In this document: piece after piece, positions 4,800 through 50,634 of the stretch
How the letters are laid out: each line of letters starts with the position of its first letter
Numbering within the stretch: the first letter of the stretch is position 1
Origin: Methylobacterium sp. R2-1
GTDB taxonomy: Bacteria > Pseudomonadota > Alphaproteobacteria > Rhizobiales > Beijerinckiaceae
DNA: 64,000 nucleotides
Assembly (NCBI RefSeq): GCF_014191355.1
Contig: NZ_JACHWM010000013.1
Location: 1 to 64,000 of the forward strand
Reading direction: 5' to 3'
Notes under the pieces: generated by a model
What the model saw: the letters and a program-made list of their open reading frames with translations, nothing else
Databases searched by the model: none
Told to the model about the DNA's origin: nothing
Position numbers and translations under genes: made by a program

Positions 4800-4889
4800 T
4801 CAGGACTAGGAGCAACACGGATCCCGCGCGGGTCCTGTGCCCGCGCTGAAGGTCACATGCCCCCAACCATGCTGATGGAGACAGAAGCT

Positions 4890-5414: not shown

Positions 5415-5526
5415 CGCGCACTCTACCGGTTCGGAGAGAGCCAACGACTGAACGCTGAAACGGTGGCCGGCGTGGACCAGCGGGTCACGTCGGCTGCTGA
5501 ACCTTTGCTCGATTGAGGAGGGTCCC

Positions 5527-5928: not shown

Positions 5929-5944
5929 GAGGGGGAGCGATCAC

Positions 5945-6289: not shown

Positions 6290-6315
6290 TCGGATCAAGA
6301 CATGGAGACGCAGCC

Positions 6316-7068
6316 ATGCAGGAAACCGCAGCCGGGATTGGACACAACAATCCGCCGGTCGCGTGCAACCCGGCACCCTGGCTTGCCGGCGCACACGCGA
6401 TCATACGGCGCCGCAAGCGTCCGGTCGGAACCGCAGGTCGAGCCCGCGAGAACGACTGGATCCTCAGCTTCGAGCGGCGCAAACCCCCGGAGATTGACGA
6501 GCTCATGGGCTGGACCGGGGGCGACGACACCCTGGCGAATGAGGTTCGTCTGACCTTCGCCTCGCGAGCCGAGGCCATCGCTTATGCCGAGCGCCAGGGG
6601 CTGGACTACGACGTCGAGGCCGAGCCTGAAGGCGTCCCGCAGGCCAGCTTCGTGACGCCGCGATTTTGGGCCCGGTACGGCAGGCATGCCTTCGGCAGGC
6701 CGCTGGTTACCCGCACTCGATCTCCGGTGGGCCAGAACCCCGAGGACCACACGGCACCTGGGACGAGCAGCCCAGACCTGGAGCATGCCCTCTTGGCCCC
6801 TGCCGCAATCTTTTCGGCTCCTGAGGTTGTTCTGAACCAGCCCCAGCTGACGAAGGAGTACAAGCGGGAGATCCTCCGGCGTTGGGCCTGGGACGAGTAC
6901 CTGAAAGAGGTTTCTGCCTCGGAAGGGATGGCGGGAGGCGAGCCCTCCCGGCTCGAAGAGGTCAAGAGGGCCCTTCTGACCCTGAGTGAGGTTTGGCGAC
7001 CGAGGCCGAGCGCGCCAGCGGCGGCCGTGTCGAGCACACTTGGTGAGCTCGCCGCCATCGCTGCTTGA
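6316..7068 (+). CDS. NDUFS4-like (ETC complex I subunit) domain fused to stress-island domain
   Basis: 250 residues, start ATG 6316 after GGAG at 6304-6307. Residues of about 45-105 read ENDWILSFERRKPP, LMGWTGGDDTL, VRLTFASRAEAIAYAERQGL: the signature of the ETC_C1_NDUFS4 family, the accessory 18-kDa subunit of alphaproteobacterial and mitochondrial complex I. Genuine bacterial NDUFS4 proteins are about 100 residues, so this is an extended version. The extra C-terminal region (about residues 155-240) carries the same motif as the hypothetical protein at 5527-5928. No nuo genes are nearby, and the neighbours are heat-shock and membrane-stress genes, so a paralog recruited to stress protection is more likely than the housekeeping subunit. 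That role is inferred. Confidence 0.82.
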   Translation: MQETAAGIGHNNPPVACNPAPWLAGAHAIIRRRKRPVGTAGRARENDWILSFERRKPPEIDELMGWTGGDDTLANEVRLTFASRAEAIAYAERQGLDYDVEAEPEGVPQASFVTPRFWARYGRHAFGRPLVTRTRSPVGQNPEDHTAPGTSSPDLEHALLAPAAIFSAPEVVLNQPQLTKEYKREILRRWAWDEYLKEVSASEGMAGGEPSRLEEVKRALLTLSEVWRPRPSAPAAAVSSTLGELAAIAA

Positions 7069-35777: not shown

Positions 35778-36182
35778 TGACCGGTATTTCGGACCGGGCC
35801 AGTTGTGAGGCTACTGCATGGTCGTGGCCATGGGTAGCCGGAAGGCCAGATCCGGGAAGGTGACGGGCGCCGGCGGCCGGTAGCCCAGCGACGAATGCGG
35901 CCGGACACGGTTGTAGGTGTTCTGCCATAGGCCAATCACGACCTGTGCTTCTCTCAGCGAGTAGAAGATCTCCTGGCGTAGGCACTCGTCACGAAGCTTT
36001 GCTCGGAGACATCCGCCTCCTTGCACGCGACGGTGATACTCTTGCCTTGCGCCGTCTGTACCTCGATTTGGCGCAGCATCAGCACGACCTGCTCCGCGCT
36101 CGGCCTCTGTCCTCGCTTCATTCCCAACTCCTCTGATCCACGCTGATCCTCTCAATCAGCCCGGTCCAAAGCCAGCCGGTCA
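35778..36182 (-). mobile_element. IS3-family element reduced to orfA head plus orfB tail, both terminal repeats kept
   Basis: The ends are TGACCGG...GGACCGGGC at 35778-35799 and its inverted match at about 36160-36182, the TG...CA ends expected for IS3. On the minus strand ATG 36121 begins an orfA head (MKRGQRPSAEQVVLMLRQIE, with ITVACKEADVSEQSF). At about 35990 it switches frame into the orfB tail LRDECLRQEIFYSLREAQVVIGLWQNTYNRVRPHSSLGYRPPAP, which stops at 35811. About 1 kb of catalytic sequence is missing. The element is dead but could in principle be mobilised by a complete copy. Confidence 0.82.
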
Positions 36183-36184
36183 GG

Positions 36185-36424
36185 TCAGAGGGAGAGGATC
36201 AGATCCGCATGCGCCTCGATCGCCGGCAGGCTGTCGTCGGCGTGAATCGGTTTGGGCGCGACGTGACCCTTCTGCGCAAACCGCTGCGACCAGCGGCTGG
36301 CGCTCGACACGCTCACCCCGAACCGCGCCGCCGCCCGATGGAAGGAAGCGCCCCCGGCCACGGCCGCTACGACGCGTTCGCGCAGATCGACAGACAACGG
36401 TAAAGGCATCGCTGGCTCCTTCAC
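36185..36424 (-). pseudogene. IS630-family transposase, N-terminal fragment (second copy)
   Basis: From ATG 36424 (or the internal ATG at 36409) the minus strand reads LPLSVDLRERVVAAVAGGASFHRAAARFGVSVSSASRW, the IS630 helix-turn-helix head, up to IEAHADLILSL and a stop at 36185 beside the IS3 right end. It is close to the fragment at 3633-3901 but clearly a different copy, with several substitutions, and is truncated about 20 codons earlier. No catalytic domain. Confidence 0.8.
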
Positions 36425-36620
36425 CAGTCAACGCCCCAACCACCGTCCCGTCGCAACACCGCCGGGAACAGCTCTAGCAGTCCGAGCGGGCCAGTGCGCA
36501 GGTCGAGTGTGCCACCGGTCTCTGAAGGGTAGACCTCACCGACTGACAAGCCTGGCTACAACGCTGACACCAGCGTCCGGCGCATAAGCAAGCTTGACAG
36601 GCGTGGTCGTTCTAGGTTCT

Positions 36621-36641
36621 GCAATGTCATAACGTAACAGC
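36621..36641 (+). promoter_or_regulatory. Zur-box-like palindrome upstream of the TonB/CobN operon
   Basis: The segment AATGTCATAACGTAACA (36623-36639) fits the proteobacterial Zur consensus AATGTTATA-n-TATAACATT at most central positions with the correct half-site spacing; three central bases and the outer right bases differ. It lies 31 bases before the ATG of the TonB receptor gene, in the likely promoter. A chance match is possible. If real, the operon would be induced by zinc limitation. Confidence 0.35.
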
Positions 36642-36671: not shown

Positions 36672-38969
36672 ATGGTTGAGTCAGACGCCGAACGTCGGCA
36701 CCCTCACGTTGTGTTCGGCAGGAATGTCGACTTCTGCGTCTTTACGGGCCTGCTTCTAGGAGTCTGTCTGATCGACCCCAAAGAAGCTGTCGCTCAAGCT
36801 GGTGGTGGTGTTTCCGCCAGCACTGGACCGGAACAGCACGTACTCCTCGAAACCTTGAGCGTTACTGGAGACGCGTCGGGCGGAGGCCTTGGCGGTACAA
36901 CCTTCGAACGCCAGAAGGAGCGGTTTTTGCGCCGCCCAGGAGCGGAGGTCGTGGTCACGGTCAAGGACGCCGAGCCGGGCCGGAGAACGAATCTCAATGA
37001 TACGCTCATCAGAACGCCGGGCGTGTTTGTGACGGAGCGCGGTGCTGGATCACTCGGCTTCATCTCCATTCGTGGCAGCGACATCGCTGCTGAGGGCTCA
37101 CGCAACGGTCGCGGCATTCGCGGCTACATCGATGGGATTCCCCTCGGCCGGACCGATGCGGGCCTGACCAGCGCCCTAATCGATCCGCTCGCGACCGATT
37201 TTGTCGAAGTCTACCGAGGGGCCAACAGCCTCCGATACGGCAGCATCGCCACGGGCGGCGCGCTCAACTTCGTCTCAAAGACGGGGCTGACCGCCCCGTG
37301 GAACGCTGTCACGATCTCCGGCGGCAGCTTCGGCAACCTGCTGACCCAGGCTGAAACGGGCGGGCAGGACGAAAACGTCGACTGGTACCTACAAGGCAAT
37401 ATTTTCAACAATCAGGGCTTTCAGGATCATACGCGCGAGCGCAATTTTCGCTTCAGCGGAAATGTCGGCGTGCGACTGGCGCCGAACATCGAGAGCCGGA
37501 CCTTCTTTGCCGCTGGTCATCTCCTGCAGGATCTGGCCGAGCCGCTGCCGCTCAATACCCTGCGCACGCAGCGACGCACGGCGCCGCCCAACTCCTATCT
37601 CTTCAATGAGCGGCTGAATCTCGATTACCAGCGCATCGCCAATCGCACCACGATCCGCGATGGGGACACCAACTATGAAATCGGGACCTACTTCCTGAAC
37701 ACGCGGCTCGACCATCTGCCCTCCCCCTTTGCCGGCGTCATTGATTACGGGTGGCGCGATTTCGGAGCCTCCGGTCGCGTAGAGCACAAATCGACGCTTG
37801 CAGATTTCCCGACGGAGTTCGTGGCCGGCGCACGGATCAACTACACCGATGCTGATTTTGATCGGTTCCAACACCGAAACAACGGTCGCGACAAGGGACG
37901 GCTGATCTTCGACAACAGCTTTGGCTCGTGGCTCGCCGAGAGCTACGGCGAGGCTGCCATTGAGGTCCTGCCGGGCGTCAGGACCTTCCTCGGCCTGCAG
38001 GCTGTCTACACAACGCGCACGCTCAATGATCTCTATCGTGGCGGCGTAGTCCCGGCCCTTGGCCCAACAGCACCGGGCGGCCCCCAACCTGGGCGCACAG
38101 CGGCGCGTCAAGAGTACGATCGGGATTTCGGTGCCATCAACCCGAAGTTTGGAGCAAACTGGGAATACACGCCCGGCCAGTTCATCTACGCCAATATCGC
38201 GCGGAGCTACGAAGTCCCCTCAGGCGCTGACCTGACCGACCTCCTGAGCGTGCAGGCTCGTACGGGCCGCAGCCTTTCCCCACTCGAAGCGCAGAGCGCC
38301 TGGACGGCGGAGGCCGGCACGCGTGGCGGATGGGATCGTTTCTCCTACGACGTCACGTTCTACCACATGCGCCTGCGTAACGAGATTTTGACGCGGTGTG
38401 CCGACGAGGTCGATCCGAGTTGCGCGACGACAGTCGCGTTCAACGCCCGCAATACCGTCCACAACGGGATCGAGCTCGGTCTCAACACGGAACCGTTCGT
38501 CGATGTCCTGCTGCCGGCTGATCGCATCTTTGTAAACCTCGTCTACAATCTCACCGACTTCCGCTTCGACGGGGATCCGCTTTTCGGAAGCGGTCGCCTA
38601 CCCGTCATCCCGCGTCATCAGCTCTTTGCCGAGGGCGGCTACCGGCATCCGGCCGGCTGGTTCGTGTCGGTGAATGTGCGGGCGCTGAGCGAACGCCGCA
38701 CGACCTTCGACGGAACGGGGGGAGAGGCGTTCATCGTGCCCTCCTACGCGTTGCTGGGGGCTCGGGCAGGCTGGCGCTCGGCGGATGCGTCGTGGAGCGT
38801 ATTCTTGGAAGGACGCAACCTAACTGACGAGGTTTATGTCTCGGAGTTTTCCGCAACGCCGACGATCCCGGTCGTGCAGCAAGGCCCGCGTGTAGTACCG
38901 CGCGTGACGCCCCAGGTCCGTCCGGGAGACGGCCGCGCCGTCTATGCCGGCATCACCCACCGCTTCTGA
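36672..38969 (+). CDS. TonB-dependent outer-membrane receptor (FecA/HmuR-like)
   Basis: 765 residues. After a signal sequence (hydrophobic FTGLLLGVCL, cleavage probably after AVAQA) comes the plug domain with NDTLIRTPGVFVTERG, GFISIRGSDIA, RGIRGYIDGIPLGRTD and VEVYRGANSLRYGSIATGGALNFVSKTG, then a 22-strand barrel with the typical FLEGRNLTDEVYVS close and terminal aromatic ...GITHRF. There is no extra N-terminal signalling domain. It is the first gene of a four-gene operon with a membrane-anchored CobN-type chelatase, so the ligand is probably a metallated tetrapyrrole or similar chelate. The next start is 141 bases downstream. Confidence 0.93.
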   Translation: MVESDAERRHPHVVFGRNVDFCVFTGLLLGVCLIDPKEAVAQAGGGVSASTGPEQHVLLETLSVTGDASGGGLGGTTFERQKERFLRRPGAEVVVTVKDAEPGRRTNLNDTLIRTPGVFVTERGAGSLGFISIRGSDIAAEGSRNGRGIRGYIDGIPLGRTDAGLTSALIDPLATDFVEVYRGANSLRYGSIATGGALNFVSKTGLTAPWNAVTISGGSFGNLLTQAETGGQDENVDWYLQGNIFNNQGFQDHTRERNFRFSGNVGVRLAPNIESRTFFAAGHLLQDLAEPLPLNTLRTQRRTAPPNSYLFNERLNLDYQRIANRTTIRDGDTNYEIGTYFLNTRLDHLPSPFAGVIDYGWRDFGASGRVEHKSTLADFPTEFVAGARINYTDADFDRFQHRNNGRDKGRLIFDNSFGSWLAESYGEAAIEVLPGVRTFLGLQAVYTTRTLNDLYRGGVVPALGPTAPGGPQPGRTAARQEYDRDFGAINPKFGANWEYTPGQFIYANIARSYEVPSGADLTDLLSVQARTGRSLSPLEAQSAWTAEAGTRGGWDRFSYDVTFYHMRLRNEILTRCADEVDPSCATTVAFNARNTVHNGIELGLNTEPFVDVLLPADRIFVNLVYNLTDFRFDGDPLFGSGRLPVIPRHQLFAEGGYRHPAGWFVSVNVRALSERRTTFDGTGGEAFIVPSYALLGARAGWRSADASWSVFLEGRNLTDEVYVSEFSATPTIPVVQQGPRVVPRVTPQVRPGDGRAVYAGITHRF

Positions 38970-39110
38970 CCGGCTCGCGACATCATGCTTGTTCAGCCGG
39001 AAGGCCAGGGTGCACGGCGCCGCGCGATCTCGTCGGAGAGTGCATCACCCATCCCGCAAGGCGGCCGTTCGGGTGAGGTCCAACGAGGGAGGCGGAGAGC
39101 GTCGTGCCGG

Positions 39111-42100
39111 ATGTCGGCGACGCGTGTGCAGGCCATCGTCGGCGCCGGCTTACTGTGGCTTGCTGCTGTTCTGCTTTCGACAATTCCGGCTGGCGCCGAG
39201 GATGCACCGGCCGGGTCGAGGCCTGTCCGGCTGCGCATCGTCGCAACGGACCTCGTGCTGCCGGGTAAGATTGCGAGCATCCGCCGTATCGCCGAGGCCG
39301 AGGGCGTTGCGGTCGAGGAAACGCGGCTCGGCACGAACGGTGGTGCGCCGGATCCGTTCGCGGAGAATGACATCGTCATCATCGATACGCCGCGCCCGGG
39401 CGATGTCGCGGCGATGCAGGCGTCGATGGCGGATACCCTGGCGAAGACGACGCGCCCATGGGTGAGGGTCGGCGGCGGCCCACCGGCGTTTGCCAACATC
39501 GCTGCCGGTGCAGCTCGCCGGATCGCGGCCTACTATGCGTCAGGGGGGCAAGCGAACTTCGCCCTGCTCGCAACCTATCTGCGCAGCTGGGCCGATGGCC
39601 GCGATCCATCGGCCATCCCTCCCGCCGTCCCGCTGCCGGCGTCCGGCCTGTATCATCCTGAGGCCGAGAAAGTTTTTGCGGACGCGCAAGCCTATCAGGA
39701 CTGGGCTCGGTCGCGCTGGAAGGAGGGGGCGCCGCGCATCGCGGTGGCGATCCCGAGCAGCCTTGTGTCCAACATGGAAACACGGGTGGTCGATGAGATC
39801 GTCCGACGCAGCGAAACCGCGGGCTTGGCGCCCGTTCCCTTCTGGTTCGACCAGGCCGATCCGTCCGGACTTGAGCGGACGCTCGGGCCGATTCGGACCG
39901 ACATCCTCATCGTTGCGACCCATCTCCAGAACGGCGCCGCCCGTGCGGCCGAGTTCCTCAAGCTCGGGATCCCGGTCATTCAAACGGTCGGGTACCGAGC
40001 GGGGGATCCGGCCGCCTGGGCAAGCGCGGCGAGCGGCATCCCGACGCCGCTGGTTGCCCCCTTTCTGATCGTCCCTGAGACTTGGGGAGCGACCGACCCG
40101 ATGGTGATCGAGGCCGTGGCGAGCGGCGAACTCGTGCCGCTCACCCGCCAGATCGACGCCCTGGTCGCCAAGGCAGGACGCCTTGCCGCCCTGAAACAGA
40201 AGCCGGCGGCGGAAAAGCAAATCGCGCTGATGTTCTGGAACTATCCCCCCGGCGAGAAGAACCTCGGGGCGTCCAACCTCAACCTGCCGCGAAGCCTCGA
40301 ACGGCTGAGCCGTACCCTTGCAGAAGCGGGTTACGACGTCCCTGCCCTGCGAGAGAAAAGTTTGATCACGGACATGCAGGCGCTGCTCGGTGCCGTCTAC
40401 CATCCCGACCGGGTTACGGACCTGTTGGCGCGAAACATGGCCGTTGCGCTGCCGCTGGCGCGCTACCAAGCCTGGTTTGCGAGCCTGCCCAAGGGCCATC
40501 AGACCGAGATCGTCAAAGCCTGGGGCAAGCCCGAGGACAGCGCGCTGCTGCGTCAGGTGCACGGCGAACCATCGTTCGTCCTGCCGCTGATCCGTGCCGG
40601 CAAGCTCGTGATCATGCCGCAGCTGCCGCGCGGAGAAAGACCGGGCGAGGCCTATCACGATACGGCGGTGCCGCCCGGTCACCTCTACCTTGCGCAGTAC
40701 CTCTACCTTCGTGAGGTCTCTGGCGCCGACGCTCTCATCCACTTCGGAACTCATGGCACCCAGGAGTGGACGCCGGGCAAGGACCGCGGCTTGTCAGTGG
40801 ACGACTACCCCTATCTGCTTCCCGGCGACCTGCCGGTCTTCTACCCCTACATCCAGGACAATGTCGGCGAGGCCGTCCAAGCCAAGCGGCGCGGGCGGGC
40901 GGTCACGATCAGTCATCAGACACCGCCCTTCGCTCCCTCTGGGCTCTATGACGAGCTGCGGGATCTTCACGTCCTGATCCACGAGTATCAGCAGCTTGAG
41001 CCGGGCGCCGCCCGCGACCGAACGGCCGAACGGATCCAAGAGGCGGCGGCTGCAAGCCACATCGACCGCGATCTCGGCCTGAACGTGGAAACCATGCGGC
41101 GCGACGTCCCTGCTTTCCTGTCCAAGCTGCACGATCATCTGCACGGCCTCGCCGCCTCGGTGACGCCGCTCGGCCTGCATACCTTCGGAGAGGCCGCCGC
41201 GCCGGATCACCGGCTCATGACGGTGCTTCAGCAGCTTGGACCGGAGTTTCAGCGCCAGGCAGGCACGGACCCGGAGGAAGCGTATGCGGCAGAGGCGAGG
41301 ACATTCGCCGAGACCCCGGCCTACCGCCTCCTCCAGACGCACCTGCGGAACGGAGACAGCCCCCCTCCGATCACCGAGCCGAAGCTCGCCGCGTTGATCG
41401 AGCGGGCCCGGAAACTCGACGGGCATTTGGCTCAGGTCGATGAGAGCGACGCCTTGCTCGCAGGGCTCGCCGGCCGCTTCGTCGCGCCGGGACCAGGGGG
41501 CGACCCCATACGCAATCCCGAGGTCCCGAACGGCCGGAACCTCTATCCTTTCGAGGCCGACAAGGTGCCGACGCAGGCTGCTTATGAGGCCGGCGACGCG
41601 GCACTCCGGCAGATCATCGAAAGCTATCAGGCGAGTCATGGCGGCACAGCGCCGACGAAGCTTGCTTTCAGCCTTTGGTCCTCCGAGACGATGCGCCACC
41701 TCGGCACGCTCGAGTCGCAGATCCTTCACGCGCTGGGACTGCGTCCAGTCTGGAAGGATGGAGGCCGCGTCGCACGGCTCGATATCATCCCCGCCGCCGA
41801 ACTCGGTCGGCCGCGCATCGACGCGGTGATTCAAGTGACAGGGCTCTACCGGGACCAGTTCGATGGGTTCCTGCGACTGCTTGCGGATGGAATCGAGCGG
41901 CTTTCCCGGCTCGACGAGCCCGGCAACCCGATCGCCGCCAACTCCCGCAGCGCGCTCGCCCGGCTTCTCGCTGCTGGCAACTCGCAGGAAGCGGCAGAGG
42001 GGTTCGCTTCGATGCGCATCTTCTCGAACGCGCCGGGTGATTACACAACAGGCCTCTCGGCTTCGGTGCTGGATTCCACCTCCTGGGAGAAGGACGATGG

Positions 42101-43028
42101 CCTCGCCGATGCCTTCCTCGCCCGAACGCAATACGCCTACGGCTCCAAGGGCTGGGGCATCCGTGCCGAGGCGGGCAACCTTTTGGCAGAGCAGCTTCGG
42201 GGTGTCAGCGCGGCGACGCTGTCCCGCAGCTCGAACCTGCACGGACTGCTGTCGACCGATCATCCCTATGAGTTCCTGGGTGGCCTCTCTCTGGCGGTCC
42301 GCCGCCTCGATGGGCAGGCGCCGGCCCTCTACGTCTCAGATCTGCGTCGGCCCGATGCGCGTGTGGCGACGGCTGGGCAGTTCCTCTCCGATGAACTCCG
42401 TGCCCGCTATCTCAACCCGCACTGGATCGAGGGGATGAAGCGGGAAGGCTACGCCGGGACGCTGGAGATCCTGAACGCGGTCAACAACCTCTGGGGTTGG
42501 CAAGTCGTCGATCCTTCGACTGTTCGTGCCGACCAGTGGCAGTCGATCCATGACACCTTTGTGCGAGACGCCCGCGAACTCGGCCTGAATCAGTGGTTCG
42601 CAAACACCAATCCAACAGCCCAAAAGCAGCTCCTTGAGCGGCTCGTGGAGGCAATCCGGAAAGGCTACTGGGACGCCCCTGATCGCACCCGACGCGAGAT
42701 CGTTGAACGGTGGCAGGAACTCACGGCGCTTGACGGCCTACCGACCGCACCAGAGACAACGCAGGCGTTCGTCGGCGAGATGGCTGCCGGCTTCGGGCTC
42801 CAAGCGGCAGCGTCCGAGGCGCAGGGCGGGGCGCCTGAGCCGAACCCATCCACGGCGATAGTGGGCGAGCCACAAACCGTTCGTGGCCAGGTCATGAAGG
42901 CCGCCCCTGCGGAACCGCAGGCTTGGTACCGCCGCCTCATCGCTCTGCTCCCACTGCTCCTCTTCGCAGCGGGCATGGTTCTTCAAGCCATCACAAACCG
43001 GCGAACTGCCTTCGGATCCACGGCATGA
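39111..43028 (+). CDS. Membrane-anchored periplasmic CobN-type chelatase (HmuS-like)
   Basis: 1305 residues from ATG 39111; the in-frame ATG at 38985 would only add a basic, non-conserved leader. CobN/BchH-family motifs are all there: FWNYPPGEKNLGASNLNLPRSLERL, HFGTHGTQEWTPGK (about 544-557), NGRNLYPFEADKVPT (807), the long SLWSSETMRHLGTLESQILHALGLRPVW segment, IFSNAPGDYTTGLSASVLDSTSWE and HPYEFLGGLSLAVRRLDG. Unlike cytoplasmic cobaltochelatase CobN it starts with a cleavable signal (VGAGLLWLAAVLLSTIPAGAE) and ends with a membrane helix (LIALLPLLLFAAGMVLQAI), placing the catalytic body in the periplasm. The overlap ATGA couples it to the ExbB-like gene. HmuS of Bacteroidota, in the same gene order, removes iron from heme. 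Whether this protein inserts or removes a metal is unknown. Confidence 0.9.
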   Translation: MSATRVQAIVGAGLLWLAAVLLSTIPAGAEDAPAGSRPVRLRIVATDLVLPGKIASIRRIAEAEGVAVEETRLGTNGGAPDPFAENDIVIIDTPRPGDVAAMQASMADTLAKTTRPWVRVGGGPPAFANIAAGAARRIAAYYASGGQANFALLATYLRSWADGRDPSAIPPAVPLPASGLYHPEAEKVFADAQAYQDWARSRWKEGAPRIAVAIPSSLVSNMETRVVDEIVRRSETAGLAPVPFWFDQADPSGLERTLGPIRTDILIVATHLQNGAARAAEFLKLGIPVIQTVGYRAGDPAAWASAASGIPTPLVAPFLIVPETWGATDPMVIEAVASGELVPLTRQIDALVAKAGRLAALKQKPAAEKQIALMFWNYPPGEKNLGASNLNLPRSLERLSRTLAEAGYDVPALREKSLITDMQALLGAVYHPDRVTDLLARNMAVALPLARYQAWFASLPKGHQTEIVKAWGKPEDSALLRQVHGEPSFVLPLIRAGKLVIMPQLPRGERPGEAYHDTAVPPGHLYLAQYLYLREVSGADALIHFGTHGTQEWTPGKDRGLSVDDYPYLLPGDLPVFYPYIQDNVGEAVQAKRRGRAVTISHQTPPFAPSGLYDELRDLHVLIHEYQQLEPGAARDRTAERIQEAAAASHIDRDLGLNVETMRRDVPAFLSKLHDHLHGLAASVTPLGLHTFGEAAAPDHRLMTVLQQLGPEFQRQAGTDPEEAYAAEARTFAETPAYRLLQTHLRNGDSPPPITEPKLAALIERARKLDGHLAQVDESDALLAGLAGRFVAPGPGGDPIRNPEVPNGRNLYPFEADKVPTQAAYEAGDAALRQIIESYQASHGGTAPTKLAFSLWSSETMRHLGTLESQILHALGLRPVWKDGGRVARLDIIPAAELGRPRIDAVIQVTGLYRDQFDGFLRLLADGIERLSRLDEPGNPIAANSRSALARLLAAGNSQEAAEGFASMRIFSNAPGDYTTGLSASVLDSTSWEKDDGLADAFLARTQYAYGSKGWGIRAEAGNLLAEQLRGVSAATLSRSSNLHGLLSTDHPYEFLGGLSLAVRRLDGQAPALYVSDLRRPDARVATAGQFLSDELRARYLNPHWIEGMKREGYAGTLEILNAVNNLWGWQVVDPSTVRADQWQSIHDTFVRDARELGLNQWFANTNPTAQKQLLERLVEAIRKGYWDAPDRTRREIVERWQELTALDGLPTAPETTQAFVGEMAAGFGLQAAASEAQGGAPEPNPSTAIVGEPQTVRGQVMKAAPAEPQAWYRRLIALLPLLLFAAGMVLQAITNRRTAFGSTA

Positions 43029-43501
43029 ATACATTCGAGACGACCCTCTACGACCTCGCGCGGATCTTCCTCGTGCCGGTGACGCTCCTCATCATGGTGT
43101 CTCTGGCCTATGCCTTCGCGACTCTGGGGGCGTTCGTGGTCGAAGCGTTCCAGCGACGGCGCGGCACCTACAGGTCCAGTCTGCTGGCCTTCCAGGCCGA
43201 GGCGAATGTCGGCAGCGACGATCTGGAGCTGTGGATCATGCGCCGGCTCGAATGGCTGCGCATCGTCTCTCGCTCGGCTCCAATGCTGGGCCTCGTCGCG
43301 ACGATGATCCCGATGGGGCCGGCCTTGCTGGCCTTGACCGGCAACGATGCCAGCGCCGTAGGCGCCAACCTAGCCGTCGCTTTTTCGTCCGTGATCCTCG
43401 CCCTCGTGAGTGCATCCATCAGTTTCTTTGTCCTCACCGTTCGGCGGCGCTGGCTGCTGGAGGAACTGCGGTCGTTCGAGCGGGCAAAGGGGATCGTCTG
43501 A
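43025..43501 (+). CDS. MotA/TolQ/ExbB-family proton channel (HmuU-like)
   Basis: 158 residues, start ATG 43025 overlapping the chelatase stop. Three hydrophobic helices: VPVTLLIMVSLAYAFATLGAFVV, then the conserved ExbB/TolQ pair LRIVSRSAPMLGLVATMIPMGPALLALTGND and VGANLAVAFSSVILALVSASISFFVLTVRRR. The APMLGLVATMIPMGPAL block is the MotA_ExbB signature. Such proteins, with a single-helix partner, turn the proton gradient into mechanical work on a periplasmic client. The partner is encoded next, and the client is presumably the chelatase or the TonB receptor. Confidence 0.9.
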   Translation: MNTFETTLYDLARIFLVPVTLLIMVSLAYAFATLGAFVVEAFQRRRGTYRSSLLAFQAEANVGSDDLELWIMRRLEWLRIVSRSAPMLGLVATMIPMGPALLALTGNDASAVGANLAVAFSSVILALVSASISFFVLTVRRRWLLEELRSFERAKGIV

Positions 43502-43794
43502 TGAGGTTCTTACAGGATGACGAAGCCGATGATCCCTTGCTGTCGGTCATCAATCTCATCGACGTTTTCCTGGTCGTCATTGCGATGCTGATGATCGCCA
43601 TTCTTCAAAACCCGAGCAACCGATTTGCTTCGCAAGCCTCGAGTGGCCAGGCATCGGAACAGAATATGACAATCCAGAACAGCAAGGATTTGACACGTTA
43701 TCAGACCAGCTCCGAAATGGGAGAGGGCAAAGGAGTTCGAGCCGGAACAACCTACCGCCTTCCCGATGGCCGAATGATCTACGTCCCTGACTAA
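43501..43794 (+). CDS. DUF2149 membrane protein (HmuV-like, ExbD analogue)
   Basis: 97 residues, ATG 43501 overlapping the previous stop by one base (TGATG). One N-terminal transmembrane helix, DDPLLSVINLIDVFLVV, continuing AMLMIAIL, carries Asp21 at the same place as the proton-carrying Asp of ExbD/TolR. A short periplasmic tail ends GTTYRLPDGRMIYVPD, typical of DUF2149. With the preceding ExbB-like protein it should form a dedicated pmf-driven motor. Last gene of the operon; it converges on the btu operon with about 100 bases between the stops. Confidence 0.9.
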   Translation: MRFLQDDEADDPLLSVINLIDVFLVVIAMLMIAILQNPSNRFASQASSGQASEQNMTIQNSKDLTRYQTSSEMGEGKGVRAGTTYRLPDGRMIYVPD

Positions 43795-43895: not shown

Positions 43896-44648
43896 CTAGG
43901 CCTCCGATTTGAGCAGCAGCACGGCGTCGACGGCTCCATCGAGATAGGTGCGAGCGAAGCGAACGCCGAACAAGTGGTCCAGATCGTTCCCGCGAGCGAT
44001 CTCCGCGACTGGTCCGTCTCCCATTATGCGCCCTCGCCCCAGCAGCACGAGCCGATCGCAATCGCGCACGGCCTGCTCGATGTCATGTAAGACGAGGACG
44101 ACGATCCGGTCGCGGGCATAAGCGTGAAGTCGCCGTATCAGGTCGATGCGGTGGCCAATGTCGAGGCTCGCTCCTGGTTCATCGGCAAGCAGCACCTCCG
44201 GTTCGGCGATCATGGTTGCGGCGAGCAGCGCCCGCGCCCGTTCGCCGCCGGAGATGCGCGACCAGGGGCGCTCGGCAAGATCGACGAGATCATGGGTGCA
44301 TAGGATCTCGTCGAGACGGCGCTCGGCACCCGGCATCCGGCTCGCGCCGAGTTCGACGATCGTGCGCACGCTGTAGTCCCAGGCCGGCTGGAACGACTGC
44401 GGCAAATACCCGATGCGGCGGGCGCGCTCCCGGGGCGGCAGGTCCACGACGGGTCGGCCATCGAGCATCGCGACGCCGGCTTGCGGGCGTGAAAGGCCGG
44501 CCAGCGTGCGCAAAAGGGTCGATTTGCCCGCCCCATTCGGGCCGATCAATCCGATCAGGGCGCCGGGCTTGATGTCGAGATCGACCGCATCGAGCAGACG
44601 GTGAGCGCCTGCCGTCACAGTGATGCCTTTGGCGATAAGGTGGGTCAT
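43896..44648 (-). CDS. btuD: Cobalamin/iron-chelate ABC transporter ATPase (BtuD/FecE type)
   Basis: 250 residues. Walker A GPNGAGKST (36-44), Q-loop GYLPQSF, signature ISGGERARALLA, Walker B EVLLADEPGASLD and switch His in LVLHDIEQ. It energises vitamin B12 (or related chelate) import across the inner membrane. It overlaps the permease gene by 4 bases and closes the operon controlled by the cobalamin riboswitch at 49588-49770, which is the reason for preferring B12 over iron. In the signature motif GERAR replaces the common GERQR, seen in other btuD proteins. Confidence 0.88.
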   Translation of the reverse strand: MTHLIAKGITVTAGAHRLLDAVDLDIKPGALIGLIGPNGAGKSTLLRTLAGLSRPQAGVAMLDGRPVVDLPPRERARRIGYLPQSFQPAWDYSVRTIVELGASRMPGAERRLDEILCTHDLVDLAERPWSRISGGERARALLAATMIAEPEVLLADEPGASLDIGHRIDLIRRLHAYARDRIVVLVLHDIEQAVRDCDRLVLLGRGRIMGDGPVAEIARGNDLDHLFGVRFARTYLDGAVDAVLLLKSEA

Positions 44649-45625
44649 GCGTGAAGCCTGCGGCGCAGCAGGACGAGGAAGAATGGTCCGCCCGCCGCGG
44701 CGGTGACGAGGCCGAGCGGCAACTCGGCCGGCGGCAGAACGGCGCGGGCGAGCCCGTCGCAGACGATGACCAGGGCGGCGCCCGTCGCGGCCGAAATTGG
44801 TAGCAGCGCGCTGTGGCGCGGGCCGACCCACCAGCGGGCGATGTGGGGGGCGACAAGACCGACGAAGGCGACGAGACCGCCATAGGCGACGGCGAGCGCC
44901 ACAACGGCGGCGCCGACCAGTACGGCGCGGGCAGTGAAGCGGTCGGCAACAAGTCCGAAGGCACGAGCCTGATCCTCACCCAGACCGAGGAGGTCGAGGC
45001 CGCGGGACAAAGGAAGGCTCACACACAGGGCGCAAGCCGCTAGGCCGGCGAGCAGGGCGAGGCCAGTCCAGTCCGGGGTCTGGATGCCACCGAGCGTCCA
45101 GCTCAGAACGACCTGTAGGCTGACGCTTTCATCCGAAAGAGCGAGCATCAGGAACGAGCGAGCTGCGCCCAGCATCGCCGCCACCGCGACACCTGCCAGC
45201 AGCAGGCCAGCGGCATCCGCCGCACCCGAGCCTCGCGCTACGGCGAGCACCAGCACGGCTGCGGCCCAAGCCCCCAAGAAGGCGAGGCCGCCAAGAGCGA
45301 GGCTGGAAGGAAGGCCGAGCGGCACGAGCAGGGCAACGGTCGCTCCGATCGCCGCACCGCCGGAGGCGCCGAGCAGGTAGGGCTCGGCGAGGGGATTGCG
45401 GAACACCCCCTGGAAGATCGCGCCGCCCAGGCCGAGCATGGCTCCGACGAGACCGGCAGCGAGCACGCGCGGCAGGCGCCAGTCACGGAGCAGGCGCGCC
45501 CGCAGGTCATCGGCTCCGCCGAGGACGTGGACGATCTCTAGCGGCCCGGCCCAGTCGTGTCCGGCCGCGAGACCGAAAGTCAGAGCGAGAAGGAGGATGG
45601 CAGCAATGAGAGGGATAAGCCTCAC
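44645..45625 (-). CDS. btuC: Cobalamin ABC transporter permease (BtuC/FecCD family)
   Basis: 326 residues with about ten hydrophobic helices and the FecCD family landmarks: RLPRVLAAGLVGAMLGLGGAIFQGVFRNPLAEPYLLGASGGAAIGA, WTLGGI near the middle, and GLVAFVGLVAPHIARWWVGPRHSALLPISAATGAALVIVCDGLAR. It overlaps both neighbours by 4 bases (ATGA), so binding protein, permease and ATPase are translated as a coupled set. Probably a homodimer in the complete importer. Confidence 0.9.
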   Translation of the reverse strand: MRLIPLIAAILLLALTFGLAAGHDWAGPLEIVHVLGGADDLRARLLRDWRLPRVLAAGLVGAMLGLGGAIFQGVFRNPLAEPYLLGASGGAAIGATVALLVPLGLPSSLALGGLAFLGAWAAAVLVLAVARGSGAADAAGLLLAGVAVAAMLGAARSFLMLALSDESVSLQVVLSWTLGGIQTPDWTGLALLAGLAACALCVSLPLSRGLDLLGLGEDQARAFGLVADRFTARAVLVGAAVVALAVAYGGLVAFVGLVAPHIARWWVGPRHSALLPISAATGAALVIVCDGLARAVLPPAELPLGLVTAAAGGPFFLVLLRRRLHA

Positions 45626-46506
45626 GGCATGGCCTGCGCCGGATGGAGAAGGGCGGCAAGGCGCTCGATCCCGCCAACCGTACGCGGTCCCGGAATCAGG
45701 AACTCGGCGCGCGGCAGAGTGTAGGCGCGGCCAGCTCGCACGGCGCGCATCTCACGAAAGCCTGGACGGGCGGTGAGCTCTGCCAGCTCCCACTCCTGTC
45801 CAGCGAGAAGAAGCACATCCGGATCGGCGGCGAGGACCGCCTCCGGCGAGACTTGGGCGATTCCGCGAATGGCGAGCGCCGGACAAGTGCCGGCGCGGAC
45901 GAGGGCATCACCGGTGTAGGTATCCTGACGCGCAACCAGCAGCAGCCCATTGCCGAGGCGTCCGGTCACGAGGATCGTGCGGGGGCAAACCGTGCCTGCG
46001 AGCCTGCGGGCTACTGCTGCGAGGCGTGCCTCCAGCCCCGCCGCGACCGCCTCCCCGCGCTCCGCCTCTCCGAGAGCCCGCCCGACGAGGCGAATGTTGC
46101 CGAGCACCTCATCGAGGCTGCGGCTCGTCAGCACGATCACCGGCAGGCCCAGCCGCTCCATCGGTGCGAGGAGTTGATGCACCGCCTGCCGGGCCGGCGT
46201 GACGAGCACGAGGTCCGGGTTTTGCGCCACAACGGCATCGACCGAGAAGCCGAGGCGACCGCCGACGACGGGTTTGTTTGCGGCTTCGGGCGGGTAGCGG
46301 GTGAAGGCGTCGATGCCGACGATGCGGTCCGTGAGACCAAGGACCGCCACCAACTCCGTGTTCGAGGAGAAGATCGTCACGACCCGCCGCGGGGCTGCCG
46401 GCAGCTCCACGGCCCGACCGAGGGTATCGGTCAGGCGGATTGGCTGGGCCATAGCCGGACTGGCCGCAGTCAGTCCGGTGAGAGCCCCGATGATCGCCAC
46501 GCGCAT
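45622..46506 (-). CDS. btuF: Periplasmic cobalamin-binding protein (BtuF type)
   Basis: 294 residues with a signal peptide (VAIIGALTGLTAASPAMAQ) and a class-III periplasmic-binding fold: RVVTIFSSNTELVAVLGLTDRIVGIDAFTRYPPEAANKPVVGG, VAQNPDLVLVTPA, and the C-terminal lobe EAVLAADPDVLLLAGQEW. It captures the ligand in the periplasm for the BtuCD-like pair. Its start abuts the stop of the TonB receptor gene directly. Whether the natural ligand is cobalamin, cobinamide or another corrinoid cannot be resolved. Confidence 0.88.
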   Translation of the reverse strand: MRVAIIGALTGLTAASPAMAQPIRLTDTLGRAVELPAAPRRVVTIFSSNTELVAVLGLTDRIVGIDAFTRYPPEAANKPVVGGRLGFSVDAVVAQNPDLVLVTPARQAVHQLLAPMERLGLPVIVLTSRSLDEVLGNIRLVGRALGEAERGEAVAAGLEARLAAVARRLAGTVCPRTILVTGRLGNGLLLVARQDTYTGDALVRAGTCPALAIRGIAQVSPEAVLAADPDVLLLAGQEWELAELTARPGFREMRAVRAGRAYTLPRAEFLIPGPRTVGGIERLAALLHPAQAMP

Positions 46507-48693
46507 TCAGAAGCGCGCCTGCAGGCCGAGTTGCAAATCCCGACCGGGTGCGGAGGTGCCGCCTCCGCCGTTGTAGAGGCGCAGGTCGGCCAGGGTCGAC
46601 TGCTGCCCGGCGATGGCGATGAAGAGCGGGTGGTAGTTCACGTCGAACAGGTTGCGCACCTGCGCGAACAGCTTCACCCCCGGCATCAGGTCCACCTCAC
46701 CGCGTATGTTGACGAGGAAGAACGGATCCTTGCGCCAGATGTACTCGCGGTAGGGCTCGGCCGTAGGCACGAGCAGGTTCTCCTCCGTGTTGTACCAGAC
46801 CGGACCGTTGAGCACACCCTGGACCTGGATCGCCCAGGGATAGGGGATATCGGCCTGACCGAAGCGGGTGCCGAGGGCAAGCTGGTACTCGTAGACGCGC
46901 TCGACCCGGCGCGTGTTGGCGCTGGCGACGCTGACGGCGCCCTCGTCCTTCATGTCGAAGTTGTAGTTGCCGTTGGCGTAAGCCCGCCAGCGCCAGCTGC
47001 CGGGTTCCCAGCCGAGGGTGCGGATCATGTCCGTCTCGTACTGGACCTCGATGCCGCGAATGAGCACGTCGCCGGCGTTGTTCACGTAGTCCGAGGTGTT
47101 GCTGTTGGGCCCGCGCGAGCGGGTGATGATGCGGTCCGAGATGATGTTCTGGAACAGCGCCACGTCGAGGCGCGAGACCCCGTTCGTCAAGGTGGTGCCG
47201 ATCTCGATCTGCTCGCTCGTCTCGGGCCGAATGTTTGCGTTGCCGAAGATGCGTCCGCCGCCGAGCGTGTTGTAGTCCGCCGCGATTTCTGTTGCGGTCG
47301 GCGCTCGGAAGCCCGACGAGGCACCGACGCGGAAGGCGGCCCAGTCAGTTGCCCGGTAGGTCGCGCCGGCGGAGTAGGTCGTGGCTTCGTAGGGGCGCGA
47401 GCCAGTGATCTGCCCGGCTAGGAACGGGGTCGGATCGAAGCTCGTGGTGCCGTAGGTCTGGCGGATGCCAGCCCGCAGCGTCACCCGATCGTCGAACAGG
47501 CGCTGGGTGTCCTCGACGTAGAGGGCGTGGAACTGGTCGGTCTGGTTGTTATCCTGCGGCGAGACCTGAGCCAACGGGTTGCCGGGCAGACCCACGCGGA
47601 AGCGATCGGAGCGCAGCCGGCTCGTCTCCCAATCCCAACCGAGAAGCAGGTCGTTGCCCGCAAACAGGCTCACCCTCGGCTGGAAGCGGGTGCCGAGGAT
47701 GTCGAGGTTGCGCGTGTTGAAGTCCGCCTGCGTGCCTGGCACCGGCTGCCCAGTGCCGCCGCGCTGGACCGGCGAGGCCCATTTGAAATGGTCCTCGTCA
47801 GTGACGCTGTAGAACTGCGCAAACAGGCTCGCGCGCCCGTCATCGGTGCGCCCGGTATAGCTCGCATCAAACGATCCGTTGATACGGTTGTCCCGGCTGT
47901 AGAGGTTGCCACCGGAACCGCGGAAGCCGACCCCGTAGATGCCGTCCGTGCGAAGCGTAAAGTCGAGCCGCTGATTGGGATCGATCTGGAAGCCGAGCGC
48001 GCCAGTGATGCCCATCCGGTTCCACTGGGTGTTGGCCATGCGATCGCCGGAGCCAGCATAGTAGTCGTCGCGCTTGGCGCCCGACAGGCCGAGATAATAG
48101 TCGAACGGGCCGACGACCCCACCGGTCTGCGCGCGTCCCTGTGCCAACCCCCAGACGCCGCCGATGCCCTCGGCAAGGGTACCAGGCGCAGTGCGGCCGG
48201 TCTTCAGGATGATGTTGATGACGCCGCCGATGTTCTGGCTGCCGTAGATCACCGAGGAAGGCCCGCGCACGATCTCGATCCGCTCGACATCGGCTATGGA
48301 GAGCTTGGAAAGGTTCGCCGTACCAGCCCGGCGGCCGTTCATGAGGACAAGGACTTGGCTGCGGAAGTCCTTGCCTTGGCCGTCGGTGGCACCGCCGCGG
48401 ATGTTGATCGAGGTCTGGCCCGGCGTCCATTCCGAGAAAAAGCCGACGGCGTTCTCGGCCAGCAGATCGGTCACCGATTTGGCGGTTGTGTTCTCGATCA
48501 TCGTACGATCGATAACCTGGACGGTGCCGGCGATCTCGGAGCGCGGCTCGGGTCGGCCGGTAGCGGTCACCACGAGCTCATCGAGGCTCACCGCGGCGCT
48601 GCCGGCGACGGTGGTGCCTTCCTGTGCCATCGCGGCGACTGAGTGCGTGCTGCCGACAAGGAGAAGCACGAGAGGGAAAAAGGCGCGAGGCAT
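46507..48693 (-). CDS. btuB: TonB-dependent cobalamin receptor (BtuB-like)
   Basis: 728 residues from ATG 48693, which overlaps the methyltransferase stop as TGATG and has GGAGGA at 48704-48709. Signal peptide PRAFFPLVLLLVGSTHSVAAMAQ, TonB box region LDELVVTATG, plug motifs NIRGGATDGQGKDFRSQVLVLMNGRRAGTANLSKL and VERIEIVRGPSSVIYGSQNIGGVINIILKTG, and a long barrel ending DLQLGLQARF. It is larger than E. coli BtuB (about 614). Control by a cobalamin riboswitch supports corrinoid uptake. Confidence 0.88.
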   Translation of the reverse strand: MPRAFFPLVLLLVGSTHSVAAMAQEGTTVAGSAAVSLDELVVTATGRPEPRSEIAGTVQVIDRTMIENTTAKSVTDLLAENAVGFFSEWTPGQTSINIRGGATDGQGKDFRSQVLVLMNGRRAGTANLSKLSIADVERIEIVRGPSSVIYGSQNIGGVINIILKTGRTAPGTLAEGIGGVWGLAQGRAQTGGVVGPFDYYLGLSGAKRDDYYAGSGDRMANTQWNRMGITGALGFQIDPNQRLDFTLRTDGIYGVGFRGSGGNLYSRDNRINGSFDASYTGRTDDGRASLFAQFYSVTDEDHFKWASPVQRGGTGQPVPGTQADFNTRNLDILGTRFQPRVSLFAGNDLLLGWDWETSRLRSDRFRVGLPGNPLAQVSPQDNNQTDQFHALYVEDTQRLFDDRVTLRAGIRQTYGTTSFDPTPFLAGQITGSRPYEATTYSAGATYRATDWAAFRVGASSGFRAPTATEIAADYNTLGGGRIFGNANIRPETSEQIEIGTTLTNGVSRLDVALFQNIISDRIITRSRGPNSNTSDYVNNAGDVLIRGIEVQYETDMIRTLGWEPGSWRWRAYANGNYNFDMKDEGAVSVASANTRRVERVYEYQLALGTRFGQADIPYPWAIQVQGVLNGPVWYNTEENLLVPTAEPYREYIWRKDPFFLVNIRGEVDLMPGVKLFAQVRNLFDVNYHPLFIAIAGQQSTLADLRLYNGGGGTSAPGRDLQLGLQARF

Positions 48694-49478
48694 CACGAGG
48701 CGGTCCTCCACACGAGGAGGGCGGAAGCTCGGGGAACGGACAGGCGGTGTCCGCCAGGAACGGGCACGGCTTGGGCGGCAAGATGTTCGTAAAGCTTGCG
48801 TCGGCGGCCGTCATCGAGGGCCCAACCGAGGCGGTCGGCAAGGAAGCCGGAAGTCCGTTCCACGTCTCGAACGACTGCGCTGAAGGTCCACTCTGTTTGC
48901 GCCGCGATGGATGGCTGATCACATGGCGGCAGGTTGCGCAGGACGACGTCGATGCCCGGCGTCTCGTCTTCACCGTGCCAGGCAGACGGCAGACAGCCGG
49001 CGAGGCAAAGGCCTCGCGGGCCGCGCTGGGCCGGAACCAGCCAGATGACATTGTTGCGGGCCCAAGCGCGGCACTGACGCAAGAAGACGCCCGCATCCGT
49101 GAGCGGGGCAGCGATGTTGGCGGCTAGCACGGTGTCTGCGGATCCTGCCGGCAGATCGGCTTGTTGCCACCCCACTGGTAGAAGGTGGGGCGGCGGCACG
49201 AGCGCGCGCAGGCGCTGCTGCATCCCAATGTTCGGCTCTACGGCGATCCAGGCTGCAAGCGGATCGCGCACGGCCTGGCCGAGTTGCCCGCCCCCGGCGC
49301 CGACATCAAGCAGGTCGCCAATGCGCGGCACTGCCGCACGCACGAGCGGAGCGACATGCGCGACGTAGTCGGATGTGTCGATGCCGGCCGCGTAGAGTTC
49401 GAGAGGATCGACTTCGATCTCGCTCGCCTGAGGCGGCGCAACGTTGAAGGGTCGTATGGTTGTGCAACTTTGTTTCAT
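48693..49478 (-). CDS. SAM-dependent methyltransferase of the btu operon
   Basis: 261 residues. The class-I methyltransferase motif LLDVGAGGGQLG lies at residues 56-67, followed by the acidic residue in AVEPN and LPAGSADTVLAANIAAPL. There is no obvious target-specific domain. It is the first gene after the cobalamin riboswitch and is translationally coupled to the receptor gene, so it is part of the corrinoid-responsive unit rather than a bystander. A role in corrinoid remodelling or in modifying a receptor ligand is possible; no known cobalamin biosynthesis methyltransferase (CobA, CobI, CobJ, CobM, CobF, CobL) signature was seen. Confidence 0.85.
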   Translation of the reverse strand: MKQSCTTIRPFNVAPPQASEIEVDPLELYAAGIDTSDYVAHVAPLVRAAVPRIGDLLDVGAGGGQLGQAVRDPLAAWIAVEPNIGMQQRLRALVPPPHLLPVGWQQADLPAGSADTVLAANIAAPLTDAGVFLRQCRAWARNNVIWLVPAQRGPRGLCLAGCLPSAWHGEDETPGIDVVLRNLPPCDQPSIAAQTEWTFSAVVRDVERTSGFLADRLGWALDDGRRRKLYEHLAAQAVPVPGGHRLSVPRASALLVWRTAS

Positions 49479-49587
49479 CGGTCCTTCCCCGAACCTTGAC
49501 GGGGGACCGTGGGCGCAAGCCGACGTCGCGGTTGCCGCAACGTGCGTTCATGCGGCCCGTTGGGACACCCCGCCCACGAGACATTTC

Positions 49588-49770
49588 ACGGTCATGGCAG
49601 GTCTCCTGGCTCACGGGTCGCCGCCACCCGTCTGGCCTTCCCGGTGATCTCTCACCAGTGACGCAGATCGACGGATGACTCGCCGCTTACAGTTGCGGGG
49701 GCAGCTCCGGTTTGGGCGCAAGCGCCGCACCGGATTCCCTCTTAGCTCGCCATGTCGGATGGCGAGAACC
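49588..49770 (-). promoter_or_regulatory. Cobalamin (AdoCbl) riboswitch
   Basis: Read on the minus strand, the conserved pieces appear in the proper order: GAGGGAATCCGGTG (about 49743-49729), GCTGCCCCCGCAACTGTA AG core (near 49690-49710), GTCACTGGTGAGAGATCACCGGGAAGGCC split over P6-P7 sequence, and the B12 box GAGCCAGGAGACCTGCC (near 49612-49596). It lies about 110 bases upstream of the methyltransferase start and should switch off the whole methyltransferase-btuBFCD operon when adenosylcobalamin is plentiful. Confidence 0.95.
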
Positions 49771-49799
49771 TTGACCGCAGCTCGTAGACCAAGCGGCGT

Positions 49800-50634
49800 T
49801 GAGGTTGTCAACCGCCAGAAAACTATCTCATTTTGACTTAATTCGCCGAGCTAATTTGCTTGATATCGTTTGCGGCAGCTCCACTCATGAGCAAATGTGG
49901 CCGGCAACACAGAAAAAGCGAAGCTCACCTTCTGAGCGCCAGATGGCAATCTTTGTGCATGGAGGCGCTTCAAGCGGAAGAGGCAGCATGTGCACTCTCG
50001 AGAACGGCAATAGCACCCCTGGATACCTCGCACACAGGTGTCGAGCCGGCTTGGACATCGCCGCGGCACGTGTCTCTCGACCGAATGCGGGATAGCACGC
50101 TCGGGCTTTGTTCATTTGCATGTAACATTATAACGTGACGTTCTTGTCAAGCTCCGAATCCGATGCCCAGCTGCCGCTCGCACAGGTACAGTGCCGTGCC
50201 AATGCACTCCACGGCCAATTCCTTGTAGCAGGATGGGCACATCGACTGCCGCAGCGCGGGATCAAGCACCAAGCACCTTGGCAGAGTTTGCGCCGTGCCC
50301 TCGCACATGTACCTCTGCAAGTCTGACTCGGGGTCTAAGTTTTTGTTCTATTAGAGCGTTTTCGGTTTGATCTGATTCGGCCTGATGGGGTTCACAGGGC
50401 TTTTGCGGGCTGATTCAGTGCTCGTTCCGGACGAGGAGCGAGATATGGGTCGACCCTACTGTTGATCCGGCCATGGCTGTGGAGGGGATCGACTGCGACG
50501 TCCACCATCCCGCATCCTGAAACTTAGCCTTCCCGCCCAAGGCCGGACTGCAGCCCGGGTCTCGATCCCGCAATTTCGCCGCCGGAGCTGCGGATAGTTG
50601 ACGCTGGTAGGCGAGTCGGAATGCTTTCGCCCTC
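49800..50634. other. Long intergenic region, no supported gene
   Basis: About 835 bases between the divergent riboswitch and pRiA4b-type gene. It contains short frames without known similarity and alternates between GC-rich and moderately AT-rich patches (for example 50090-50150 and 50330-50390). The region around 50350-50440 has the look of an IS end (GAGCGTTTTCGGTTTGATCT) but no matching partner was found. It should also hold the promoter for the riboswitch transcript near 49790-49850. Confidence 0.5.

Follow-up and report, generated by a model that had tools for sequence, protein, structure and literature searches.

We have analysed a stretch of 64,000 nucleotides from Methylobacterium sp. 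R2-1 (contig NZ_JACHWM010000013.1, positions 1 to 64,000; hereafter the window), in which four genes at 36672-43794 encode a TonB-dependent outer-membrane receptor, a CobN-family protein of the BtuS/HmuS type, a MotA/TolQ/ExbB-type protein and a DUF2149 protein (Table 1). The explanation that we favour, and that we consider evenly poised between right and wrong, is that this operon encodes a Zur-controlled periplasmic dechelatase with its own proton motor, which would free zinc from an imported metallo-tetrapyrrole. It draws on the computed gene set and protein classes, on Zur-like operators detected in this and in related genomes, and on the identity of active-site residues with those of the heme dechelatase HmuS. 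Loci are designated by our own numbers (L).

The gene set is well supported at the level of sequence. An earlier sequence-only reading had listed the same four genes in the same order and had assigned to the chelatase an ExbB/DUF2149 pair of its own, and both points were borne out by the open reading frames (ORFs), by the Pfam matches and by the tight coupling of the three distal genes, the ATG of the ExbB-like gene overlapping the CobN stop codon and the ATG of the DUF2149 gene overlapping the ExbB stop codon. The CobN-family gene probably starts at 39111 instead of 38985, because a signal-like sequence begins there; this start leaves a gap of 141 nt between the receptor and the CobN gene. 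A search for the set in other genomes, proposed by the same reading, found ExbB, CobN and TonB receptor genes on the same strand as DUF2149 in 61 of 80 named loci, and in 43 of the 52 for which a full stretch was available, so that the arrangement is not due to chance. An ExbB partner stands beside DUF2149 in 79 of the 80.

The CobN-family protein scores 993 bits for PF02514 (CobN-Mg_chel in Pfam) and 1779 bits (cut-off 1248) for PRK05989.2-2, an NCBIfam family named cobaltochelatase subunit CobN, and carries the superfamily motif HFG(T/A)HG as HFGTHG. The source genome (5.83 Mb, 52 contigs) holds three CobN-family genes, the other two being a BchH on contig C4 (PRK13405, 2270 bits) and a CobN on contig C2 (PRK12321, 1716 bits); a CobT gene on contig C3 is presumably the partner of that separate housekeeping CobN. 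In a tree of 63 proteins, whose four long branches leave the deep joins unsure, the window protein falls in an 8-row clade with support 100, outside housekeeping CobN and BchH. The proposal that the chelatase is distinct from housekeeping CobN thus agrees both with the tree and with the gene content of the genome. The N-terminal signal and C-terminal membrane helix noticed earlier were recovered by hydropathy prediction, together with a borderline internal segment (1.4), which suggests that the protein is exported and membrane-anchored. Hydrophobic segments at both ends were likewise found in 83 of 103 motor-linked CobN proteins, HmuS included, in 5/8 members of the window clade and in none of five CobN/BchH proteins; ORFs were script-called as the longest open frames, and the approximate starts explain some of the misses. 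A structure model of residues 30-1215 (mean pLDDT 89.9) matched M. tuberculosis CobN 7c6o with TM 0.82 and HmuS 9d26 with TM 0.81 in Foldseek, and in VIA with Z 51.4 (rmsd 3.7, 1092 aligned) and Z 41.6 (rmsd 5.0, 1119 aligned), respectively; neither fold comparison separated CobN from HmuS.

It is the active site that links the protein to HmuS. Residues H548, H1051, E1054 and H271 align with HmuS H538, H1209, E1212 and H254, and HmuS E577 is also conserved. Among 29 columns that are invariant in the 8-row clade and rare (<10%) in the Asp/Gln class described below, six (H271, Q908, H1051, E1054, D1077 and N1102) match HmuS in 3/3 rows. The HmuS motif LSLDHxxEFMGG reads LSTDHPYEFLGG in the window protein, with His and Glu retained and two other letters changed. 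The residues at the positions of HmuS His-1209/Glu-1212 divide the motor-linked proteins into classes: His/Glu, with the window protein and HmuS; Asp/Gln, with most beta/gamma loci and S. meliloti CobN; and Asn-Asp/Asp, found in a long CobN form of Pseudomonadaceae and a few other genomes. This long form (~1450 aa) was seen at L026, L043, L044 and L171-L182; a gene of the nitrite/sulfite reductase type lies near six of its Pseudomonadaceae loci, and strong Zur-like sites, each >1.5 kb upstream of CobN, occur at three long-CobN loci of one genus.

Control of the operon by zinc through Zur, a mode of regulation that the sequence-only reading had not noticed, is well supported as a prediction. 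When the window was scanned with an independent matrix built from five published Caulobacter Zur sites (PMC4176598), the two best matches fell in the promoters of the operon and of the convergent operon beside it, the next non-overlapping match reaching ~12 bits, and no site as good as the first was found in 6 Mb of simulated sequence. Its core, TGTCATAACGTAACA, is an exact match to the relaxed pattern TGTNATANNGTNACA, of which the genome contains four exact sites against 0.1 expected, located at znuA, at this operon and at a pair of TonB receptors that are near copies, one with a Fur-family gene next to it. With one mismatch allowed, the relaxed pattern also matched the core at 50119-50137 and gave 12 sites in the genome (5.75 expected under a Markov model, two with the reversed pattern), in 9/12 of which the neighbouring gene belongs to the kinds mentioned here (znuA, COG0523, receptor). 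A stricter pattern, combining the 36.6-kb site with the known Zur consensus, returned three genome sites at one mismatch or fewer (one in the reversed control); the two besides that of this operon precede genes for COG0523 GTPases. Another motif-preceded receptor of this genome sits near a COG0523 gene.

The same signal accompanies the clade. Matrix matches of at least 15 bits occur in 10/11 clade loci (window included) and of at least 18 bits in 9/11, against 7/60 and 1/60 loci of the Asp/Gln (DD-Q) class, the counts covering whole stretches and not promoters alone. Elsewhere, matches of at least 15 bits were found in 5/15 ND-D, 2/7 other DH-E, 4/5 HmuS-type and 7/10 other loci, the last two sets being of lower G+C. 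Counted by consensus, 6/9 clade promoters (L025, L045 and L225, of one genus, being taken once) and 0/54 DD-Q promoters reach 11 of 14 positions. A COG0523 gene lies within the stretch in 4/11 clade loci (two of one genus) and 1/60 DD-Q loci. L037, L127 and L137, tree neighbours or housekeeping, were excluded from DD-Q in the matrix and COG0523 counts. L046 and L049, which duplicate L038 and L184, were omitted from these two counts, from the consensus and from the metal-neighbour count; they were retained in the both-end hydropathy count, in the 80- and 52-locus counts and in a first DD-Q promoter count, from which six loci were dropped where the contig ended. In a prospective test, three later-found clade members, one from a genus already seen, all had the site by consensus; one of eight other DUF2149 clusters in that set had it too, as did L230 by the matrix (23.1 bits), so that 2/8 may be zinc-type. 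Strong Zur-like sites also occur in L023, L041 and L233, and zinc control is therefore not unique to the window clade. That a Zur box is a general feature of this gene set was rejected on the DD-Q counts at 11/14 and at 18 bits.

A similar arrangement has been described in Pseudomonas aeruginosa, where PA1921-PA1925 were listed in 2015 with a Zur site and their role was left open (PMC4542158). By published description, PA1922-PA1925 encode a TonB receptor, a CobN-like, an ExbD-like and a small protein under a Zur site, as in the window; these genes were induced 45- to 147-fold when znuA was mutated (PMC4542158), and gel shifts showed Zur binding to the PA1922 promoter (PMC8531726). In the portions of these accounts available, PA1923 is treated as a cobaltochelatase of unclear role with no link to HmuS, and the literature searched, with most subscription journals outside it, held no statement of a Zur-regulated CobN-like protein as a dechelatase. 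HmuS itself is a membrane-bound, NADH-dependent heme dechelatase that does not require ATP, with His-254 and Met-79 as heme ligands and His-538 required for turnover (PMC12583661). BtuS, like the window protein CobN-like and predicted to be exported and membrane-anchored, was put forward as a third type of CobN with a role in metalloporphyrin salvage, although a B. fragilis btuS1 btuS2 mutant still released PPIX, which argues against a simple dechelatase role there (PMC6460266). Compared with the BtuS proposal, the motor-linked CobN-like proteins span several active-site classes, with the zinc-type site found chiefly in certain classes. Housekeeping CobN and BchH/ChlH share the fold of the window protein, but they differ in lacking the anchor at both ends, in their catalytic pair and in their branch of the tree. 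They also work with ATPase partners.

From these elements the following mechanism can be outlined. When zinc is scarce, Zur would leave the operator at 36623-36641, to which it is predicted to bind, and the operon would be expressed. What the receptor would bring into the periplasm is a complexed metal, a zinc tetrapyrrole being the most likely form; there the membrane-anchored chelatase might hold the ring with the help of the neck histidine H271 and, between H548 and the H1051/E1054 pair, pull the metal out. Once released, the metal could reach the cytoplasm through ZnuABC or through the Zur-marked neighbouring importer, and the ExbB-like/DUF2149 pair, as a small proton channel, would drive the opening and closing of the chelatase in place of the CobS/CobT ATPase. 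Here we infer that the metal is zinc, that its ligand is a tetrapyrrole, that the reaction is one of removal and that motor and chelatase are coupled; the zinc tetrapyrrole substrate and the chelatase-coupled motor are our best current guess.

The motor pair resembles ExbB-ExbD and TolQ-TolR in its three hydrophobic segments, in the P..LGL..T core of the ExbB-like protein (PF01618, 29.8 bits against a cut-off of 22.9; P86, G89, L90 and T93 invariant among 40 aligned rows) and in the Asp that the only helix of the partner carries. That Asp, noticed in the sequence-only reading, is Asp21 of the DUF2149 protein (71.9 bits for PF09919), which lies inside the only predicted helix (residues 12-35) and is invariant in 42 aligned rows and conserved in at least 90% of 47. 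The DUF2149 protein appears ExbD-like in position and helix. The pair differs from ExbB-ExbD and TolQ-TolR in that the ExbB-like protein is only 158 aa, no TonB gene accompanies it, and the low-confidence DUF2149 model (one helix plus a short hairpin, mean pLDDT 67) shows no ExbD-type periplasmic domain and matched nothing in Foldseek at E 0.001.

An accessory Ton motor that energizes the outer-membrane receptor instead of the chelatase is a possible though rather doubtful role for this pair. A receptor on the same strand in 44/52 full loci would fit such a role, and so would the reading of PA1924 as an ExbD possibly serving the TonB pathway with PA1922 (PMC4542158). The structural features of the low-confidence DUF2149 model speak against it, as do three further observations that lead us to think that the motor serves the chelatase: none of the four genes encodes TonB; a Trichlorobacter cluster (pGLOV01) holds both the motor pair and a separate ExbB-ExbD-TonB set; and the CobN, DUF2149 and MotA_ExbB families are all matched in Methanosarcina acetivorans, an archaeon with no outer membrane, as family presence, with adjacency not read. 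The sequence-only reading had also argued for a non-ATP energy source from the absence of cobST in the operon; this argument is weak, since CobT is encoded elsewhere in the genome.

A wider form of the dechelatase reading, which we put forward tentatively and hold to be more doubtful than the zinc-specific one, is that the ExbB-like/DUF2149 motor powers an extracytoplasmic class I chelatase by proton-motive force, protons standing in for the ATP used by CobS/CobT or ChlI/ChlD, within a metal-flexible module whose catalytic pair and regulatory context co-vary by lineage. The pairs would be His/Glu, Asp/Gln and Asn-Asp/Asp, and the contexts Zur, a cobalamin riboswitch, nickel, copper and heme genes. 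On Runella plasmid pRUNSL01 (L129) hyp hydrogenase-maturation genes surround the ExbB/DUF2149/CobN set, which points to a nickel version, and genes for ChaN, HmuY, Cus-type efflux, multicopper oxidase and NnrS lie nearby mostly at Asp/Gln loci (one representative per gene cluster was identified). These neighbourhoods suggest that one module serves several metals.

Several observations weigh against the zinc dechelatase reading. On the side of the motor, it co-occurs with CobN in 46/52 full loci and with the receptor in 44/52, which leaves its partner ambiguous; in 6/52 it occurs without CobN, in five of these also without a receptor; three such pairs (L096, L104 and L122) lie near AcrB-/CusB-type efflux genes; and purified HmuS demetallates heme without HmuU or HmuV (PMC12583661). 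The CobN-free pairs imply a motor whose use extends beyond the chelatase. On the side of the chelatase, HmuS groups with CobN/BchH at support 87, below the 95 mark of the tree, and its Met79, which is the second heme ligand, gives way to Pro in 8/8 clade members; H271 is kept in all eight, and Aureibacter HmuS also lacks Met79. The demetallation site accordingly looks HmuS-like and the first binding site different, and HmuS would be a mechanistic relative of the window protein, not a demonstrated sister. As to zinc and its carrier, 3/12 of the relaxed Zur-pattern sites adjoin no evident zinc gene, the best score in the same-clade Azospirillum locus L126 is 9.0 bits, no Zur-like site, with nikR ~7 kb away, and no zinc-tetrapyrrole uptake system was found in the literature searched, most subscription journals lying outside that search. 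At three clade loci (L022, L024 and L025) the receptor has more in common with the convergent receptor of the window than with that of the operon; the receptor is not conserved in the clade, and the imported compound may therefore differ. A receptor swap in the window operon (36672-38969 against the BtuB-like gene at 46507-48711) is possible. The solved sequences closest to the operon receptor are PqqU/YncD (61 bits, residues 103-271). Motor pairs with neither CobN nor a TonB receptor nearby were seen at five of the 52 full-stretch loci (L074, L096, L104, L107 and L122).

The metal might instead be cobalt, which the system and the adjacent importer would take up as corrinoids or cobalt complexes under zinc starvation and which would substitute for zinc; we regard this as clearly unlikely. 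The convergent operon carries a Zur-like site together with a cobalamin riboswitch, such riboswitches occur in 3/10 searched clade loci (the window being longer, 64 kb) against 1/19 others, corrinoid genes surround the Trichlorobacter CobN (PMC3403914), and cobalt eases zinc starvation in P. aeruginosa (PMC13083405). The difference between 3/10 and 1/19 is weak, and the Asp/Gln pair of S. meliloti housekeeping CobN is replaced in the clade by His/Glu, so that the cobalt-type pair is not found here. Extraction of cobalt from corrin is, moreover, chemically hard.

A true Hmu system taking iron from heme appears very unlikely. The sequence-only reading had called the system Hmu-like, and this stood insofar as HmuS is the best-studied mechanistic relative, with the His/Glu pair and the H254 equivalent in common, and the kinds of genes match hmuR-S-U-V: like HmuR-S-T-U-V of Bacteroidota (HmuS, PDB 9d26), the window has a receptor, a membrane-anchored CobN-type protein, an ExbB-like and a DUF2149 protein. 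What did not stand is the closer kinship, since HmuS is not sister in the tree, the Met79 equivalent is gone and the control site is Zur-like. Identity to HmuS-type proteins is ~28-30%, HmuS-motif proteins occur separately in a sampled alphaproteobacterial order (L229, L232), the four genes include no HmuT- or HmuY-like gene, and, apart from the residues shared with HmuS, no heme-specific signal was found in the operon or its control region. Membership in the Hmu operon was rejected on the tree and on the Met79 to Pro change. That the gene is a duplicated housekeeping cobaltochelatase working with CobS/CobT, as its NCBIfam name and the CobT gene could hint, is barely credible, and it was rejected on the tree, on a predicted topology in which the signal-like start and anchor suggest a site outside the cytoplasm, and on the separate CobN, BchH and CobT genes of the genome.

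The sequence-only reading had pointed to the absence of any ABC importer; none is encoded among the four genes, but a TonB/ABC importer directly adjoins them in convergent orientation (43896-49788). A second riboswitch-headed receptor, on contig C10, also has a Zur-like site, and the joint occurrence suggests combined zinc and B12 control. Two TonB-receptor loci of the source genome (window 43896-50137, minus strand; L207, ~4305-6912) appear to pair a Zur-like operator with a cobalamin riboswitch, and L185 shows the same pairing. Contig C13 from ~36 to 86 kb (window 36-64 kb, L027, L205) amounts to a metal-uptake island, in which four Zur-like sites accompany several TonB receptors and two importers of the FecCD type, along with a COG0523 gene and genes for a Fur-family protein and a CsoR/RcnR-type repressor. 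Apart from these, the window holds a ROSE heat-shock RNA thermometer at 4226-4323 on the plus strand (Rfam RF00435, 61.2 bits).

With the own genome counted in each, DUF2149 was found in 9/289 sampled genomes of the class, 11/299 of the phylum and 3/249 of the order. It was also found in 29/119 genomes of the family of genome G306 and in 12/249 of the order of genome G183. The locus is accessory in its source genus, since all five listed congeners lack DUF2149. Directly upstream of the operon, at 35811-36443, fragments resembling transposase genes were recognized by eye, and these remnants suggest that the operon was gained horizontally.

Table 1. Features of the dechelatase operon, its Zur-like operators and the convergent operon (window coordinates).
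Feature	Position	Strand	Evidence and remarks
Zur-like operator of the operon	36623..36641	+	21.4 bits, top in window; core at 36625-36639
TonB-dependent outer-membrane receptor, 765 aa	36672..38969	+	Pfam PF00593 and PF07715
BtuS/HmuS-type CobN-family protein, 1305 aa	39111..43028	+	PF02514; frame open from 38985
MotA/TolQ/ExbB-type proton-channel protein, 158 aa, three hydrophobic segments	43025..43501	+	PF01618
DUF2149 protein, 97 aa, single predicted helix with Asp21	43501..43794	+	PF09919
ABC ATPase, heme/corrinoid/siderophore importer type	43896..44648	-	PF00005; NCBIfam below cut-off among matches listed
FecCD/BtuC-type permease	44645..45625	-	PF01032; best NCBIfam BtuC, below cut-off
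BtuF/FecB-type periplasmic binding protein	45622..46506	-	PF01497
BtuB-like TonB-dependent receptor	46507..48711	-	Pfam; solved relatives include heme receptors and BtuB
ORF of 261 aa, SAM methyltransferase-like by eye	48693..49478	-	no Pfam match at 0.001, no NCBIfam match at 0.01
Cobalamin riboswitch at operon head	49579..49788	-	Rfam RF00174, 131.8 bits
Second Zur-like operator, upstream of the cobalamin riboswitch	50119..50137	-	19.6 bits, second in window

Overall, the presence of the HmuS catalytic residues in a zinc-type clade points to a specific, testable activity, the periplasmic demetallation of a zinc or cobalt tetrapyrrole. If the reading is correct, metal-loaded tetrapyrroles would be a zinc source contested among bacteria, many CobN annotations would be wrong, and a chelatase run by protons rather than by ATP would be of general significance.

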